From contig JAUIMC010000008.1 of the NCBI GenBank assembly GCA_030433215.1, forward strand, positions 62,001 to 126,000: 64,000 nucleotides of DNA, read 5' to 3'. Positions 16,700 to 27,242 of the stretch are shown here, one piece after another. This DNA comes from Alphaproteobacteria bacterium (GTDB lineage Bacteria; Pseudomonadota; Alphaproteobacteria; Caulobacterales; Parvularculaceae). Every line of letters begins with the position of its first letter. The stretch's first letter is position 1. Both the position numbers and the translations under genes were made by a program. The notes below the pieces were generated by a model. That model was not told the origin of the DNA. It worked only from the letters and a program-made list of their open reading frames with translations, and made no database searches.

Positions 16700-16762
16700 G
16701 CCATGCGCGGGCCACGCCTCCCCAACGAGGCGCGACCCATCTGAGAGGATGGGAGTAAAAAC
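16700..16762 (+). ncRNA. serC-type leader RNA (cis-regulatory)
   Basis: Two tandem hairpins lie directly before serC: CGCCTC/GAGGCG (16715-16720, 16727-16732) and CCCATC/GATGGG (16736-16741, 16748-16753). The second hairpin contains part of the Shine-Dalgarno GGGAG (16751-16755), 7 bases before the ATG. This is the arrangement of the alphaproteobacterial serC RNA motif described upstream of serC-serA operons, whose ligand is not known to me. The match is by position and structure; a covariance-model score would settle it. Confidence 0.75.
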
Positions 16763-17920
16763 ATGACTCAGAAACCGTCTGCGCGCCCCCAGCGCGCTTA
16801 TTTTTCGTCCGGACCCTGCGCAAAGCGCCCTGGTTGGTCTCCGGAAAATCTTCAAACCGACACCCTCGGCCGCTCGCATCGTTCGAAGCTCGGCAAAGCC
16901 CGTCTTCAGGATGCGATTGCGCGCACACGCGCGCTGTTGGGCGTGCCTGACGATTACCGCATCGGCATTGTGCCGGCGTCGGACACCGGCGCCGTTGAAA
17001 TGGCTATGTGGTCCATGTTGGGCGAGCGCCCCGTGGACATGCTCGCCTGGGAAAGCTTCGGCGAAGGCTGGATCACCGATGCGGTGAAGCAGCTGAAACT
17101 CGATGCGCGGGTCTTGAAGGCGCCCTACGGCGAAATTGCCGACCTTGCCGCCGTCGATCCCAAGCACGACGTCGTTTTCACCTGGAACGGCACCACCTCG
17201 GGCGTGCGCGTGCCGAACGCCGACTGGATCAGCGAGGCCCGCGAAGGCGTCACGATCTGCGACGCGACGTCTGCGGTTTTCGCGCAACCGCTCGACTGGC
17301 CGAAGCTCGATGTCGTCACCTATTCCTGGCAGAAAGTGCTGGGCGGCGAGGGGGCCCATGGCGTTCTCATTCTGTCGCCCCGCGCGGTCGAGCGGCTTGA
17401 AAGCTACACGCCGCCCTGGCCGCTGCCGAAGCTGTTCCGCCTCACCAAGGGCGGCAAGCTCAATGAGGGCATTTTCGAGGGCGCGACCATCAATACGCCG
17501 TCCATGCTCTGCGTCGAGGATTATCTCGACGCCCTGAAATGGGCCGAAAGCCTCGGCGGGATCGAGGCGCTCCACGCCCGCGCCGACGCCAATGCGGCGG
17601 CGCTCGGCGATTTCGTCGAAGGCGCGGACTGGCTCGATCATCTCTGCGCCGATCCGGCGATCCGCTCCAACACTTCCGTGTGCCTGAAGATTGTCGATCC
17701 CGACATCGTCAAGCTCGACGAGGACGCGCAGCGTGCTTTCGTGAAGGCAATGGACAAGCTGCTCGAAGCGGAGGGCGCAGCCTACGACATCAACGGCTAT
17801 CGCGACGCGCCCCCGGGCCTTCGCATCTGGTGCGGCGCCACGGTCGAGACCGCGGATGTCAAGGCGCTCGGTCCCTGGCTCGACTGGGCCTTCGCCGAAG
17901 CGAAAAAATCCCTCAGTTAA
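16763..17920 (+). CDS. serC: SerC, phosphoserine aminotransferase
   Basis: 385 residues. [14 protein letters not shown] at the N-terminus, [13 protein letters not shown], the strand [14 protein letters not shown] and the PLP-lysine motif [15 protein letters not shown] (about 188-202) mark the long alphaproteobacterial SerC type, distinct in sequence from the enterobacterial enzyme. It converts 3-phosphohydroxypyruvate and glutamate to phosphoserine. serA follows after about 100 bases, and the pair is probably cotranscribed from the promoter upstream of the leader RNA. Confidence 0.95.
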
Positions 17921-20990: not shown

Positions 20991-20994
<4 letters not shown>

Positions 20995-22139
20995 GCGCGT
21001 TGCGCCGCCGCAATGCGCTGCGCCATCTGCGCATGGCCGGCGAGCATGCGGATGCGCTCGCCTTGATCGGGCTCCAGCGACCAGTTCCCGTGCTCCACCG
21101 TGCCGCCGAGCAGGACCGAACTCTTGCGCGGGAACATGTAGAGATAGCCCTCGGGCGTGCCCGTGACATAGCCGTAATCGACTTCCGGCTGCGGCAAGAG
21201 CATGGTCAATTGCCCGCGCGCCGGCGCCATTGCGTCGTCGCCGAACAGCGCCTTCGCGCCGAGCCCCGTACAGTTGAAGATGAGCCTTTCTTTTAAGTCG
21301 AAAACCTCATCGGCGGTCTCGAAGTTTTTCTGCATGATGCGCCCGCCTGCATTCTCGACGGCCTGCATCAGCGCGCGCAGATAAATATCCGGGTCGATCA
21401 TCAGCGCGTGGTGGCGCTCCACATAGCCATAGCCGAAATAACGCTCGGGGTTCTCTTCCGTCGCCAGCCCCGTATAGAGATCGTCGCCTTCGATATAGGG
21501 TGTGCGCTCTTTCAGGGGCGGGGCTTCCCGGAGATTGAGATAGCGCATGTAGTAAACGCCGTAAGCCGGATCGTTTGCGAGATGCTGGAATTTGCGCTGG
21601 GCGATGCGCGCCGCGCGCACGAACTGCATCAGGAATTCCTCCGTCACCGCCTCGCGCCCGGCGAACAGCGTCGTCGGATGCCAATAGGCGCCGGCGATGT
21701 TGGACGTCGTATGGGGCGGCAGGGCGCCGCCGTAGACGCTCACCTCATAGCCGCGGCGTAACAAGAGCAGCGCTGTCGTCAGCCCCATCACCCCGGCGCC
21801 GAGAACGGCGGTGCGTTTCCGGTCGATCCCATCCGCAAGTTCGACGGCGAGCTGCGCGCAGCCCCAGGATAGCGTCACCCCGCAGCCGCCATGGCCGTAA
21901 TTGTGGATGACGTCGCGGCGCCCGAACTTTTCGCGCTCGAGGCGGAAGCCGCTGCGGCGATAGGGGCGAAGGCCGACGACCGTGCGGATCTCGCGTGAGG
22001 GTTGGGACAGGACCGGCGCGTAAGGCGCCTCGAAAGGGCGGGCGTGATCGTCCGCGGCGCGCGCGGGCGAGAATGCGGGAAGCGAGCCAAGGGCGGGACT
22101 GAGGGCGGCCGCTGTCAGAAACCGGCGTCGTGCGATCAT
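20991..22139 (-). CDS. Tat-exported DAO-family FAD oxidoreductase with circularly permuted motif order
   Basis: 382 residues with a twin-arginine signal ([11 protein letters not shown]...). The D-amino-acid-oxidase elements are all present but out of order. The segment that normally ends the fold, [16 protein letters not shown] plus [17 protein letters not shown] (about 52-97), comes first. The FAD Rossmann motif [22 protein letters not shown] (about 112-133) follows, then [26 protein letters not shown] and [11 protein letters not shown] (about 345-355), where the protein ends. This is a circular permutation of the DAO fold. Homologues with this order probably exist in related genomes; I recall the pattern but cannot verify it. 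The substrate is unknown; likely a periplasmic D-amino acid or amine. Confidence 0.85.
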
Positions 22140-22279
22140 GATGCGTCATTCCCCTGATGATTGCCCGTGCGCGCATCTTTTCGCGGCCCGTCTCTCGGCG
22201 CAAGCTCCCGGGCTCGTGACGGAAGCGGTGCTGGCGCGCCATGTCGCCGCGGCCTATACTGCGCATGGAAAGGATCGTC

Positions 22280-22738
22280 ATGAACAAGGTCAAAAGCTTC
22301 ATTTTCCCGGCCGTTCTTGCCGTCGGCGCAGTGGTTTTCGCTCTTTCCGGGCGGACCTCGGCGACGGGCGCCGACTACGCTCTCGACCGCGAGCCGGAAG
22401 TGATCGCCGCGACCTTTTCTTCGGCCTGGTGTTCCGCCTGCAAGATCCTCGAGCCGCGGCTGGCGAAAGTGATCCCCGACTTCGCCGACAAGCCGGTGAA
22501 ATTCGTCGAGCTCGATTTCACCTTCGGCCAGCGCGAGGAAGTCGAGGCCAAGGCGCGCGCTGAAGGTCTCGCCGAGATTTATCCGCGCTTTGAAGGCGCG
22601 ACGGGGTTCACGCTGCTCGTTGACCGGGAGACCGGTGAGATCATCGACAGGCTGACCGTCGACTATTCCCAATCGGCCATGCGCTCTGCGCTCGCCCGGG
22701 CGCTCGCCGTGGCGCAGGCCGCGCCGGCGGCGGAATAG
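22280..22738 (+). CDS. Membrane-anchored/exported thioredoxin-like protein
   Basis: 152 residues from the ATG at 22280 (AAAGGA 6 bases upstream). An N-terminal signal or anchor (about 5-24, SFIFPAVLAVGAVVFALSG) precedes a thioredoxin fold with the active-site motif SAWCSACKILEP (about 52-63; WCSAC is a CxxC pair) and ATGFTLLVDRETGEI near the cis-Pro region. The expected cis-Pro is replaced by Gly-Phe-Thr, which is unusual. It probably acts as a periplasmic thiol reductase or oxidase. Partners are not evident. Confidence 0.75.
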   Translation: MNKVKSFIFPAVLAVGAVVFALSGRTSATGADYALDREPEVIAATFSSAWCSACKILEPRLAKVIPDFADKPVKFVELDFTFGQREEVEAKARAEGLAEIYPRFEGATGFTLLVDRETGEIIDRLTVDYSQSAMRSALARALAVAQAAPAAE

Positions 22739-22870
22739 TTATTCTTTATACGGAACTTCCGATTTCGGGACGGTTTCGCGATTGCGAAAATACCGCTTCG
22801 GGACGCGCCGGCGACGCCTTTGGCGCGCGATTTTTCTTGCGCTTTTTCGCCTTTTGAGGCAGCATGAAAG

Positions 22871-23035
22871 CCGTTCCGAGGGGCGTCCCGCCTGTCGCCA
22901 GTGGACGACGGCTCGTGCGACGCGCAACTCATTGATCCTTCTTGGGATCAGGAGCAATACGCGCCAGGGAGCCAGGGCAATGGGACTGAGAGAGACCCTT
23001 TGAACCTGAACCGGGTCATGCCGGCGCAGGAACGG
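22871..23035 (+). ncRNA. TPP (thiamine pyrophosphate) riboswitch with very long P3 arm, no thiamine gene downstream
   Basis: P1 pairs CCGTTCC (22871-22877) with GGAACGG (23029-23035). GAGGGGCG at 22878-22885 matches the 5' conserved part of the second riboswitch in this window. ACTGAGA (22985-22991), GACCCTTTGAACCTGA and the P5 pair CCGG/CCGG (23011-23014, 23021-23024) followed by CGCAGGA are the conserved THI-box elements. P3 starts GTCCC (22885-22889) and closes GGGAC (22982-22986), enclosing about 92 bases with its own hairpin (TGATCC/GGATCA). The next genes on this strand are not recognisable thiamine genes. Confidence 0.85.
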
Positions 23036-23102
23036 AACAGCGAAAGACTTGGAGAACCCTGCGTTTTTAAGATGCAGCGTCGACTGAGCCTGACGTCGAT
23101 TT

Positions 23103-23140
23103 CCTCATCGCTGGATCCGCAAGCTTAAGCGGCGATGAGG
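23103..23140 (+). terminator. Hairpin downstream of the orphan TPP riboswitch (possible terminator/attenuator)
   Basis: The outer stem is CCTCATCG (23103-23110) with CGATGAGG (23133-23140); the inner stem is CCGC/GCGG. It lies 68 bases after the aptamer. A T-run is weak (CCCTTTTG some 10 bases later), so termination is uncertain. The rest of the 22739-23325 gap holds a small TTTCGC/GCGAAA hairpin at 22774-22789 and no gene I can support. Confidence 0.4.
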
Positions 23141-23325
23141 AGACCGGCCCTTTTGTAAAGTTTAGGCGCGGCGTCTGGTTGCGCGCATCCGGCATATAAT
23201 TCCTGTACGGCGCAGCGCCGCCCTTTCGGGGTGCGGCGCATGAATGGCTGTGTCCTGGCTCTATTCCTTTCGCCGCCGGGGGGGGCTAGACTTCTTCCCT
23301 TGAGAACAAAGAAGGGGAGACCATC

Positions 23326-23661
23326 ATGAAAATTATTCTGTTGAGCAGCTTGCTGCTTCTGCCCGGCGCGGCGTTCGCGCAGCCGGCGAAAGAGCTGCAA
23401 AAGCCGGCGATCTCGCAAGTCATCACCGCGCAAATTGGCTCGAACGAAGGCGAAACGGGCCCCACCTTGTCCGGCCTTTTGAGCGAGGGCTATGAAATTA
23501 TCAATGTGGACGCGCCCGTAGGCGAGGCCAATGCGCGCTTTATCCTCAGAAAAGGCAATGTGATCTATTCCTGCCTGCAGCGGGTTTATCGCGAAGGAAC
23601 GGGCTCCGGGCGCAATCGCGGCATTCCGTCGATCTGCGAAAATCTTACGCCCGCGACATAA
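23326..23661 (+). CDS. Small secreted protein, unknown
   Basis: 111 residues. The signal peptide (MKIILLSSLLLLPGAAFAQ) is followed by a short domain (about 28-105) with two cysteines (VIYSCLQRVY and PSICENL) that could form a disulfide. GGGGAG lies upstream of the ATG. It is the first gene after the orphan TPP riboswitch, 290 bases downstream, but nothing in it suggests thiamine binding. I recognise no family. Confidence 0.7.
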   Translation: MKIILLSSLLLLPGAAFAQPAKELQKPAISQVITAQIGSNEGETGPTLSGLLSEGYEIINVDAPVGEANARFILRKGNVIYSCLQRVYREGTGSGRNRGIPSICENLTPAT

Positions 23662-26628: not shown

Positions 26629-26703
26629 AACCGCCCGGTTTTCCCCGCCCGCCCGTGCGTGGTCTTCCTTGATGCGCCGTCGCCGATTTGCTAGGAAAGC
26701 GGC

Positions 26704-26825
26704 GTATTCCGAGGGGCGCCGGCGGCACCGGCTGAGACCTTGTTTTTTCTCTTCCCATAGGAAGGGGAAACGGCACAGGGGCACCCTTTGAACCTGATCG
26801 GTTAAGACCGGCGTAGGGACGGAGG
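26704..26825 (+). ncRNA. TPP riboswitch controlling the thiC operon
   Basis: GAGGGGCGCC with P3 GCCGG/CCGGC, GGCTGAGA, a P3a insert (CTTCC/GGAAG hairpin), CACCCTTTGAACCTGATC, then the P4/P5 arm GGTTAAGACCGGCGTAGGGA make a complete THI-box. The Shine-Dalgarno GGAGG (26821-26825) directly abuts the 3' strand of P1 and lies 6 bases before the ATG at 26832, so TPP binding should block translation initiation. Confidence 0.95.
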
Positions 26826-26831
26826 CTGAAG

Positions 26832-27242
26832 ATGATCACCACTGCAACCGTGCTGACCCTGTCGCTCGCGAAAGCGATGGGCGTTTATTTCATCGCCGGC
26901 GGGCTGTCGGGCTTGATCAGCCGCGAGCGATGGGCGGCGATCCTCGATGAGTTCATGGCGCGGCCCGCGCTTACCTTCATCTCCGGCGTCTTCGTGTTCG
27001 TCCTCGGCGCGGCGCTCGTCATGCTCCACAATCTCTGGACCGACCCGCTGGCGATCGCCGTGACGCTGATCGGCTGGGCGGCGGCCATCGAAGGCCTGAT
27101 CTTGGTGGTCTATCCGGACCCGCTCCTGAAATGGGCGGTCAACTTCGTCCGCCCCGGCGCGGTCCGCGCCTTTTCGGTTCTCACCATCCTTCTCGGCGCC
27201 GTCTTCCTGGCGCTCGGCTTCACCGGCCGGGCGGGGCTTTAA
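26832..27242 (+). CDS. Small four-helix membrane protein under TPP control, unknown
   Basis: 136 residues with four hydrophobic segments (about 5-27, 47-67, 72-95, 108-130). It starts right at the riboswitch-controlled ribosome site and is followed 38 bases later by thiC, so it is the first gene of a TPP-repressed operon. The second half (AAIEGLILVVYPDPLLKW...SVLTILLGAVFLALG) faintly recalls the DUF2065/YjeT type, without certainty. Location suggests a role in uptake or handling of thiamine or its pyrimidine, which is inference from context only. Confidence 0.8.
   Translation: MITTATVLTLSLAKAMGVYFIAGGLSGLISRERWAAILDEFMARPALTFISGVFVFVLGAALVMLHNLWTDPLAIAVTLIGWAAAIEGLILVVYPDPLLKWAVNFVRPGAVRAFSVLTILLGAVFLALGFTGRAGL

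Follow-up and report, generated by a model that had tools for sequence, protein, structure and literature searches.

The element described here lies on the plus strand of the window (the whole stretch of 64,000 nucleotides that was analysed), behind a thioredoxin-like gene (22241..22738, +; Pfam PF00085) that is outside the RNA. From 5' to 3' it comprises a promoter-like pair of motifs (22836..22865, +), a TPP aptamer with an enlarged P3 (22873..23038, +) and a conserved hairpin of up to 17 pairs (23095..23148, +). A small secreted protein with no Pfam match (23326-23661) and a phosphodiester glycosidase (PF09992; 23693-24451) are encoded behind it. An ordinary TPP riboswitch, separate from the element and 3.7 kb beyond it, was found at 26702..26836 (+; 63.2 bits) before a DoxX-like gene and thiC (labels by eye). 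The preliminary description had stated that no thiamine gene stands directly behind the aptamer, and this holds. It had offered three explanations: a thiamine gene was lost, the downstream secreted genes are TPP-controlled, or the element now works alone as a regulatory RNA. Two further features of the window were recorded. A serC leader motif (RF00517, 58.7 bits) occupies 16705-16757 immediately before a gene at 16763, serC by eye, in accord with what this family leads one to expect. On the minus strand, a secreted-looking gene of D-amino-acid-oxidase type by eye (20991-22139) lies beside purA; tblastn matches to it were obtained in the own genome and in G023, G009, G045 and G063.

The aptamer had been placed at 22871-23035. 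It is real, with bounds of 22873-23038 and a length of 166 nt, and all conserved THI-box parts could be seen as claimed (GAGGGGCG, CTGAGA, ACCCTTTGAACCTGA and GCCGGCG). The helices on the plus strand were assigned as P1 (22873-22878/23033-23038), P2 (22879-22882/22996-22999) and P3 (22885-22889/22982-22986), with CUGAGA at 22986-22991 and P4-P5 at 23005-23030. The true P1 is GTTCCG/CGGAAC, that is 6 bp and not the 7 bp first counted, the A-T pair next to it being counted with P2 by Rfam. P3 proper, GTCCC/GGGAC, encloses a 92-nt arm. Helices P1-P5 and the conserved core nucleotides of RF00059 are present. CUGAGA, which doubled as search anchor, occurs in every aligned member, and GGCG is kept in 34 of 34 elements. 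The position after CCUGA is U in 31 of the 34; the window copy and two relatives carry A instead of this consensus base. A trial alignment (A2) was made on 8 copies. The main alignment (A1) held 25 of the 28 copies then known and omitted G022 and G042, which are close to others, and G045, which has a very long P3. In these 25 copies the named structure was paired in 97.1% of cells, and 10 of 43 pairs had changed on both sides. The covariation score was reached by 0 of 500 shuffles, and sliding the partner by 1-3 columns lowered the pairing to 32-46%.

Scored with RF00059, the window element reached 48.8 bits (E 1.8e-8 in 701 bases). The aptamer was found, yet below the gathering score of 54.3 bits, which is the detection threshold. 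The shortfall is explained by the P3 arm, which the model cannot place: it takes bases near 22960 as P1, misses the true P1 and also assigns the P3 bases wrongly. The listed copies of relatives likewise score below the gathering score. For fungal TPP riboswitches, passages of PMC11683625 report that RF00059 often fails once P3 exceeds about 60 nt. A search of Rfam at E up to 10 over the element gave no other plausible family. We built a covariance model, R1, from the 25 element copies. The window copy scored 178.9 bits with R1 and was itself a training row, so the worth of this model lies in the gap between members and other matches. Members reached at least 150 bits in 32 genomes and every other match at most 83 bits, the best other TPP riboswitch scoring 77 bits in the family and 83 bits in 299 genomes of the order.

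The enlargement of P3 had been estimated at about 92 bases, and the arm indeed measures 92 nt (22890..22981, +). It folds as a three-way junction: one branch is the hairpin GTCG..CGAC (22894-22909), the other a longer stem with interruptions and a variable tip. The TGATCC/GGATCA hairpin noticed before is real (22933-22938/22945-22950), but it falls where relatives differ most within the arm. When the arm was analysed alone in the same 25 copies (alignment A4), 95.0% of cells were paired and 8 of 20 pairs had changed on both sides, a number reached by 4 of 500 shuffles; the covariation score was reached by 0 of 500. The fifth pair of the hairpin GUCGN..NCGAC is A-U in 13 copies, C-G in 4, G-C in 1 and U-A in 1, and is unpaired in 6, the window among them. 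With an arm model, R2, the arm was confined to the element in 62 family genomes except for three weak matches of 22.6-29 bits (G049, 29.0; G082, 24.8; a second place in G016, 22.6). A match of 26.1 bits in G074 was that genome's own element. Across the class, R2 at E 1e-6 found no arm in the 384 other genomes, and BLAST with the element gave no second arm copy among the matches listed. An inserted repeat or a separate RNA family was rejected as identity of the arm, since BLAST and R2 place it inside the element.

Behind the aptamer, a hairpin at 23103-23140 had been proposed as expression platform. The hairpin is real and longer than described (23095-23148), with a predicted energy of -27.4 kcal/mol and a z of -4.7 against shuffles. 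It was found in 33 of 34 genomes, none being recognised in G002. The alignment (A3) held 31 of the 33 hairpins and omitted G045 and G074. In it, 93.5% of cells were paired, and 6 pairs had changed on both sides, which 5 of 500 shuffles reached. Further pair types in the hairpin failed to beat the shuffles (305 of 500 reached the value), and of the 29 copies with letters on both sides, 23 have a mismatch at the fifth pair. From the P1 region to the hairpin, the RNA would span about 276 nt in the window and 212-548 nt (median 267) in the 33 genomes. The order of aptamer and then hairpin is that of an attenuator. This brings in the main rival explanation, a cis riboswitch in which TPP would decide transcription past the hairpin into the next gene. 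The window hairpin is followed by CCTTTTGT, in keeping with such a switch, and the window is among the 3 of 33 genomes with at least five T in the 8 bases after the hairpin. The other 30 have fewer than five, which counts against the cis switch and led us to reject the hairpin as an intrinsic terminator. Its proposed role as expression platform is possible, with the same T counts standing against it.

The 5' end of the element is marked by the promoter-like pair, CTTG (22836-22839) and CAGCAT (22860-22865), which ends 8 nt before P1. CTTG is found upstream of P1 in 34 of 34 copies, at 36 nt in 25 genomes and 37 nt in 9, and a conserved CA...T follows about 25 nt after it. In the columns before P1, T is found at -7 in 30, A at -11 in 28 and C at -12 in 26 of the 34. 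With this placement, the RNA start would fall at P1. The second hexamer is a poor TATAAT and the pair is absent from the report of a sigma-70 scan, and we therefore call it promoter-like only. Two observations concern the same region. A terminator-like stem with a T run (22804-22842) lies behind the thioredoxin-like gene, and this T run overlaps a conserved CGATTTT before CTTG. GAGTC, a GANTC site and as such a target of CcrM methylation, overlaps the second hexamer in 10 of 34 copies by eye (for example L066, L080 and L089), the window having GAGGC.

Among relatives, a first DNA search of 40 and an RF00059 search of 60 placed the element in its own and in other genera. Overall, the element including its arm was found in 34 of 62 Parvularculaceae genomes, comprising 32 with an R1 score of at least 150 bits and, in addition, G045 and G074. 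By genus, this R1 score was reached in 25 of 28 genomes of the own genus g1, 6 of 9 of g16 and 1 of 1 of g15. G045 and G074 belong to g13 and carry the element with a P3 so much larger that R1 splits it; they were recovered by the 5' signature. A third g13 genome (66% complete) gave no match. The aptamer is about 335 nt long in G045 (L087 2766-3100) and G074 (L127 4687-5020), owing to the grown P3 arm. Three of the 28 g1 genomes and three of the 9 g16 genomes, some of them incomplete, lack the element, and in G041 and G063 the thioredoxin locus is present without it. In sampled genomes outside the family, none was found in the order (n=299) or the class (n=385), and with R1 at E 1e-22 over the 385 class genomes the own genome alone passed. 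A degenerate 21-base pattern of the 5' strand, matched exactly against 84,980 species, hit 37 loci. We counted 32 of them as true, 26 from Marinicaulis (now Hyphococcus), Parvularcula(ceae) or Amphiplicatus and 6 labelled only Alphaproteobacteria. R1 was run on 15 of the 37: ten loci of Parvularculaceae type or Alphaproteobacteria were all recovered, eight of them with at least 150 bits and two of g13 type with 62-65, and five loci outside those groups gave no match (at most 13.5 bits). Two named isolates, Hyphococcus (Marinicaulis) flavus SY-3-19 and Amphiplicatus metriothermophilus CGMCC 1.12710, carry the element, which makes direct testing possible.

Synteny in these relatives was constant on one side only. 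A thioredoxin-like homologue lies upstream on the same strand at 34 of 34 loci (68-894 nt before P1, at most 400 nt in 25), and the downstream genes vary. By tblastn, 3 of 34 genomes have the small secreted protein behind the element, namely the own genome, G021 and G043 (44-45% similar), a count that could overlook copies of so short and fast-changing a protein. No gene follows the element more often than the phosphodiester glycosidase (20 of 34 genomes), which lies within 300 nt of the hairpin in 9. At several of the other glycosidase loci a gene of opposite direction intervenes. Elsewhere a beta-barrel protein or a hotdog-like gene (by eye) is found. Six genomes have a downstream gene with Pfam support that faces the element: SSF in G023 and G009, DsrE in G016, Trans_reg_C in G003, YkuD in G048 and amine oxidase in G045. 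A codon-usage heuristic put the next gene on the strand of the element in 24 of 31 genomes and on the other strand in 7, no downstream gene being called in 3 of the 34. This census is rough, placing a plus-strand frame before the Pfam-supported minus-strand gene in G009 and G045 and missing the thioredoxin-like gene at some loci, and the statement on orientation therefore rests on the six Pfam cases. For the suggestion that the secreted genes are TPP-controlled, the glycosidase provides an argument, and the rare secreted protein and the intervening opposite genes weaken it; the case is weak. For a cis riboswitch in general, the recurrent glycosidase is consistent with a cis role in part of the family, as is the co-directional majority by the heuristic; it lowers our estimate for a free RNA and raises that for the rival. 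The variable downstream genes and the six facing genes argue in the other direction. Where the gene behind the element is opposite-facing, serving as a gene leader cannot be the shared function, and we therefore take the element as an RNA gene.

Secondary structure predictions bear on the same question. In the 34 genomes the aptamer fold costs 0.4-6.2 kcal/mol (median 2.1) relative to the free ensemble, a price that ligand binding could pay. In ligand-free folds of the full-length RNA, P2 had a probability above 0.5 in 6 of 33 genomes and P3 in 4 of 33; ordinary aptamers folded alone (29 copies) had medians of 0.93 for P2 and 0.98 for P3. The predicted probability of the long hairpin exceeded 0.5 in 29 of the 33 genomes; it fell to nearly zero in G020, G007 and G042 and to 0.25 in G043. 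Because of the energy gap and the mostly unpredicted P2 and P3, the ligand could reshape the 5' part while the hairpin stays formed. The hairpin yields to other pairing in 4 of the 33 folds, which favours a cis switch, but its formation in the remaining 29 means that no general antiterminator was seen. Taken with the T counts and the changing neighbours, we consider the cis riboswitch possible but unlikely. A 5' hairpin GGGCG/CGCCT competing with P2 and P3 exceeded 0.5 in just 6 of 34 genomes, so it is not claimed. A duplex test against the thiC start in 21 genomes, crude and with mononucleotide shuffles, was negative (mean z -0.31). A hairpin arm was also weighed as a seed for pairing in trans. 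Allowing two mismatches at most, 8 genomes had 6-22 sites each for its 18-mer, a count that takes in the element itself, against 0-1 for the reversed control. The 18-mer, unlike its reversed control, fits the codon word D-F-L-I-A-G; we took the excess as probably a coding coincidence and rejected this candidate.

Next, the element was compared with the ordinary riboswitch. In 28 of 34 genomes thiC lies in the fetched stretch, on the same strand, 0.6-7.6 kb after the hairpin and with its own ordinary TPP riboswitch; this riboswitch begins at most 0.5 kb after the element in G002, G022 and G060. The loss of a thiamine gene was thus not borne out by the search, which covered thiC. The ordinary riboswitch at 26702..26836 is probably a paralogue of the element. 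One might then regard the element as the decaying leftover of a thiC riboswitch duplication, in line with the likeness of its 5' P1/P2 strand to that of the thiC riboswitch in the same genomes, with the proximity of thiC and with its absence from some genomes. However, in the 24 genomes with both, the 5' P1/P2 strand is more conserved in the element than in the working thiC riboswitch (100% over 12 nt vs 96% over 14 nt), and so is the 5' side of P3 (82% vs 73%). The core is at 89% vs 70%, a comparison confounded by the variable P3a of the ordinary riboswitch. The 3' side of P3 in the element is at 67% and the tip at 22%; in G011, outside those 24, the 5' strand differs at two positions. Aptamer, arm and hairpin also carry compensatory changes. 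Given this conservation and covariation, decay to a pseudogene is very improbable.

The sister genus g17 offers a hint on origin. In G072 (L131 4402-4570) a TPP aptamer with a short P3 is followed by a similar hairpin, TTATTTGT and then thiC, and in G069 (L121 4697-4860) the same arrangement precedes a short gene and a DoxX-like gene. These g17 riboswitches have a long hairpin, GGGCTTTCCTCGC..GCGAGGAGAGCC, and a T-rich tail, like the orphan 3' hairpin by eye. Both loci speak for the cis riboswitch. The arrangement suggests that the hairpin began as the terminator of a cis switch and was retained after the element had separated, the likeness being one judged by eye.

As judged from the alignments, the aptamer core, arm and hairpin are under selection and the promoter-like spacing is fixed, while the downstream genes change. 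The element is best read as a free-standing TPP-sensing non-coding RNA that would act in trans or as a TPP sink, to which we assign a probability of roughly 0.57. The third of the early explanations, an element working alone as a regulatory RNA, thereby fared best of the three, on account of the fixed spacing, the conservation and the changing or convergent downstream genes. Transcription, an end near the hairpin, TPP binding and everything concerning a partner are what we infer. Transcription would start from a promoter whose position leaves at most a few bases between the 5' end and P1. The RNA would fold as a TPP aptamer whose P3 bears the three-way-junction arm, and the long hairpin would close it. 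Binding of TPP would draw P1, P2 and P3 together and thereby decide whether the arm is displayed. Display of the arm to a partner is the likely output of this model. The RNA would then work at a distance from where it is encoded, pairing with that partner or sequestering it, or would serve as a TPP sink. Within the free-standing reading, we tentatively propose, at somewhat less than even odds, a TPP-gated trans-acting RNA: a thiC-type riboswitch that a whole lineage would have made into an independent RNA gene, whose new arm and 3' hairpin contact another RNA or protein in one ligand state only.

The sink alternative holds that an abundant RNA binds and buffers TPP. TPP pools are usually large, which speaks against it, and a sink leaves the conserved arm and hairpin unexplained. 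An architecture without a constant gene behind it would suit a sink, and a precedent exists in the c-di-GMP reservoir proposed for Bdellovibrio merRNA in the relevant passages of PMC3627812. On balance we regard the sink as improbable.

Compared with the RF00059 riboswitch, the element has the same P1-P5 layout, CUGAGA, a core of ACCC..GAACCUGA..GCCGGCG and covariation. It differs by its 92-nt three-way-junction P3 arm with much conserved sequence, the lack of P3a, the absence of a thiamine gene directly behind, its own promoter-like start and a score under the cut-off. SroA is a TPP riboswitch. Free or trans-acting riboswitch RNAs are rare cases in the portions of the literature consulted, namely SreA, Rli55, EutX and merRNA (PMC8383071, PMC7266159, PMC3627812); SroA is described there as riboswitch-like with an uncharacterised mechanism (PMC8383071). 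Like SreA, Rli55 and EutX, the present element is proposed as a riboswitch RNA acting away from its own gene. According to passages of PMC8383071 and PMC7266159, those RNAs sense SAM or cobalamin and have known partners, and SreA precedes a gene, whereas the element has a TPP-type aptamer and a putative partner. Like merRNA, it would be a non-coding RNA that contains a riboswitch aptamer and is followed by no conserved reading frame; as the passages of PMC3627812 have it, merRNA binds c-di-GMP and its massive expression was demonstrated, whereas the TPP-type element is known here from sequence alone. Fungal TPP riboswitches also have a P3 of about 100 nt and more, but in the sections of PMC11683625 concerned this P3 is variable and the switches lie within genes, whereas much of the arm sequence is conserved in the element.

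TPP riboswitches are described in the abstract of PMC6414600 as the most widespread class. They are known chiefly as cis elements, normally placed ahead of a thiamine gene. A conserved, separate TPP-sensing RNA would be a new form of this known type; the element was not described in the open-access literature among the matches listed. The standard Rfam cut-off conceals such members in bacteria. A family conserved as a separate RNA gene, with a new conserved P3 domain, would show a metabolite switch becoming a free regulator. If the TPP-gated trans-acting RNA proved true, the cells would read their vitamin B1 status at distant genes.
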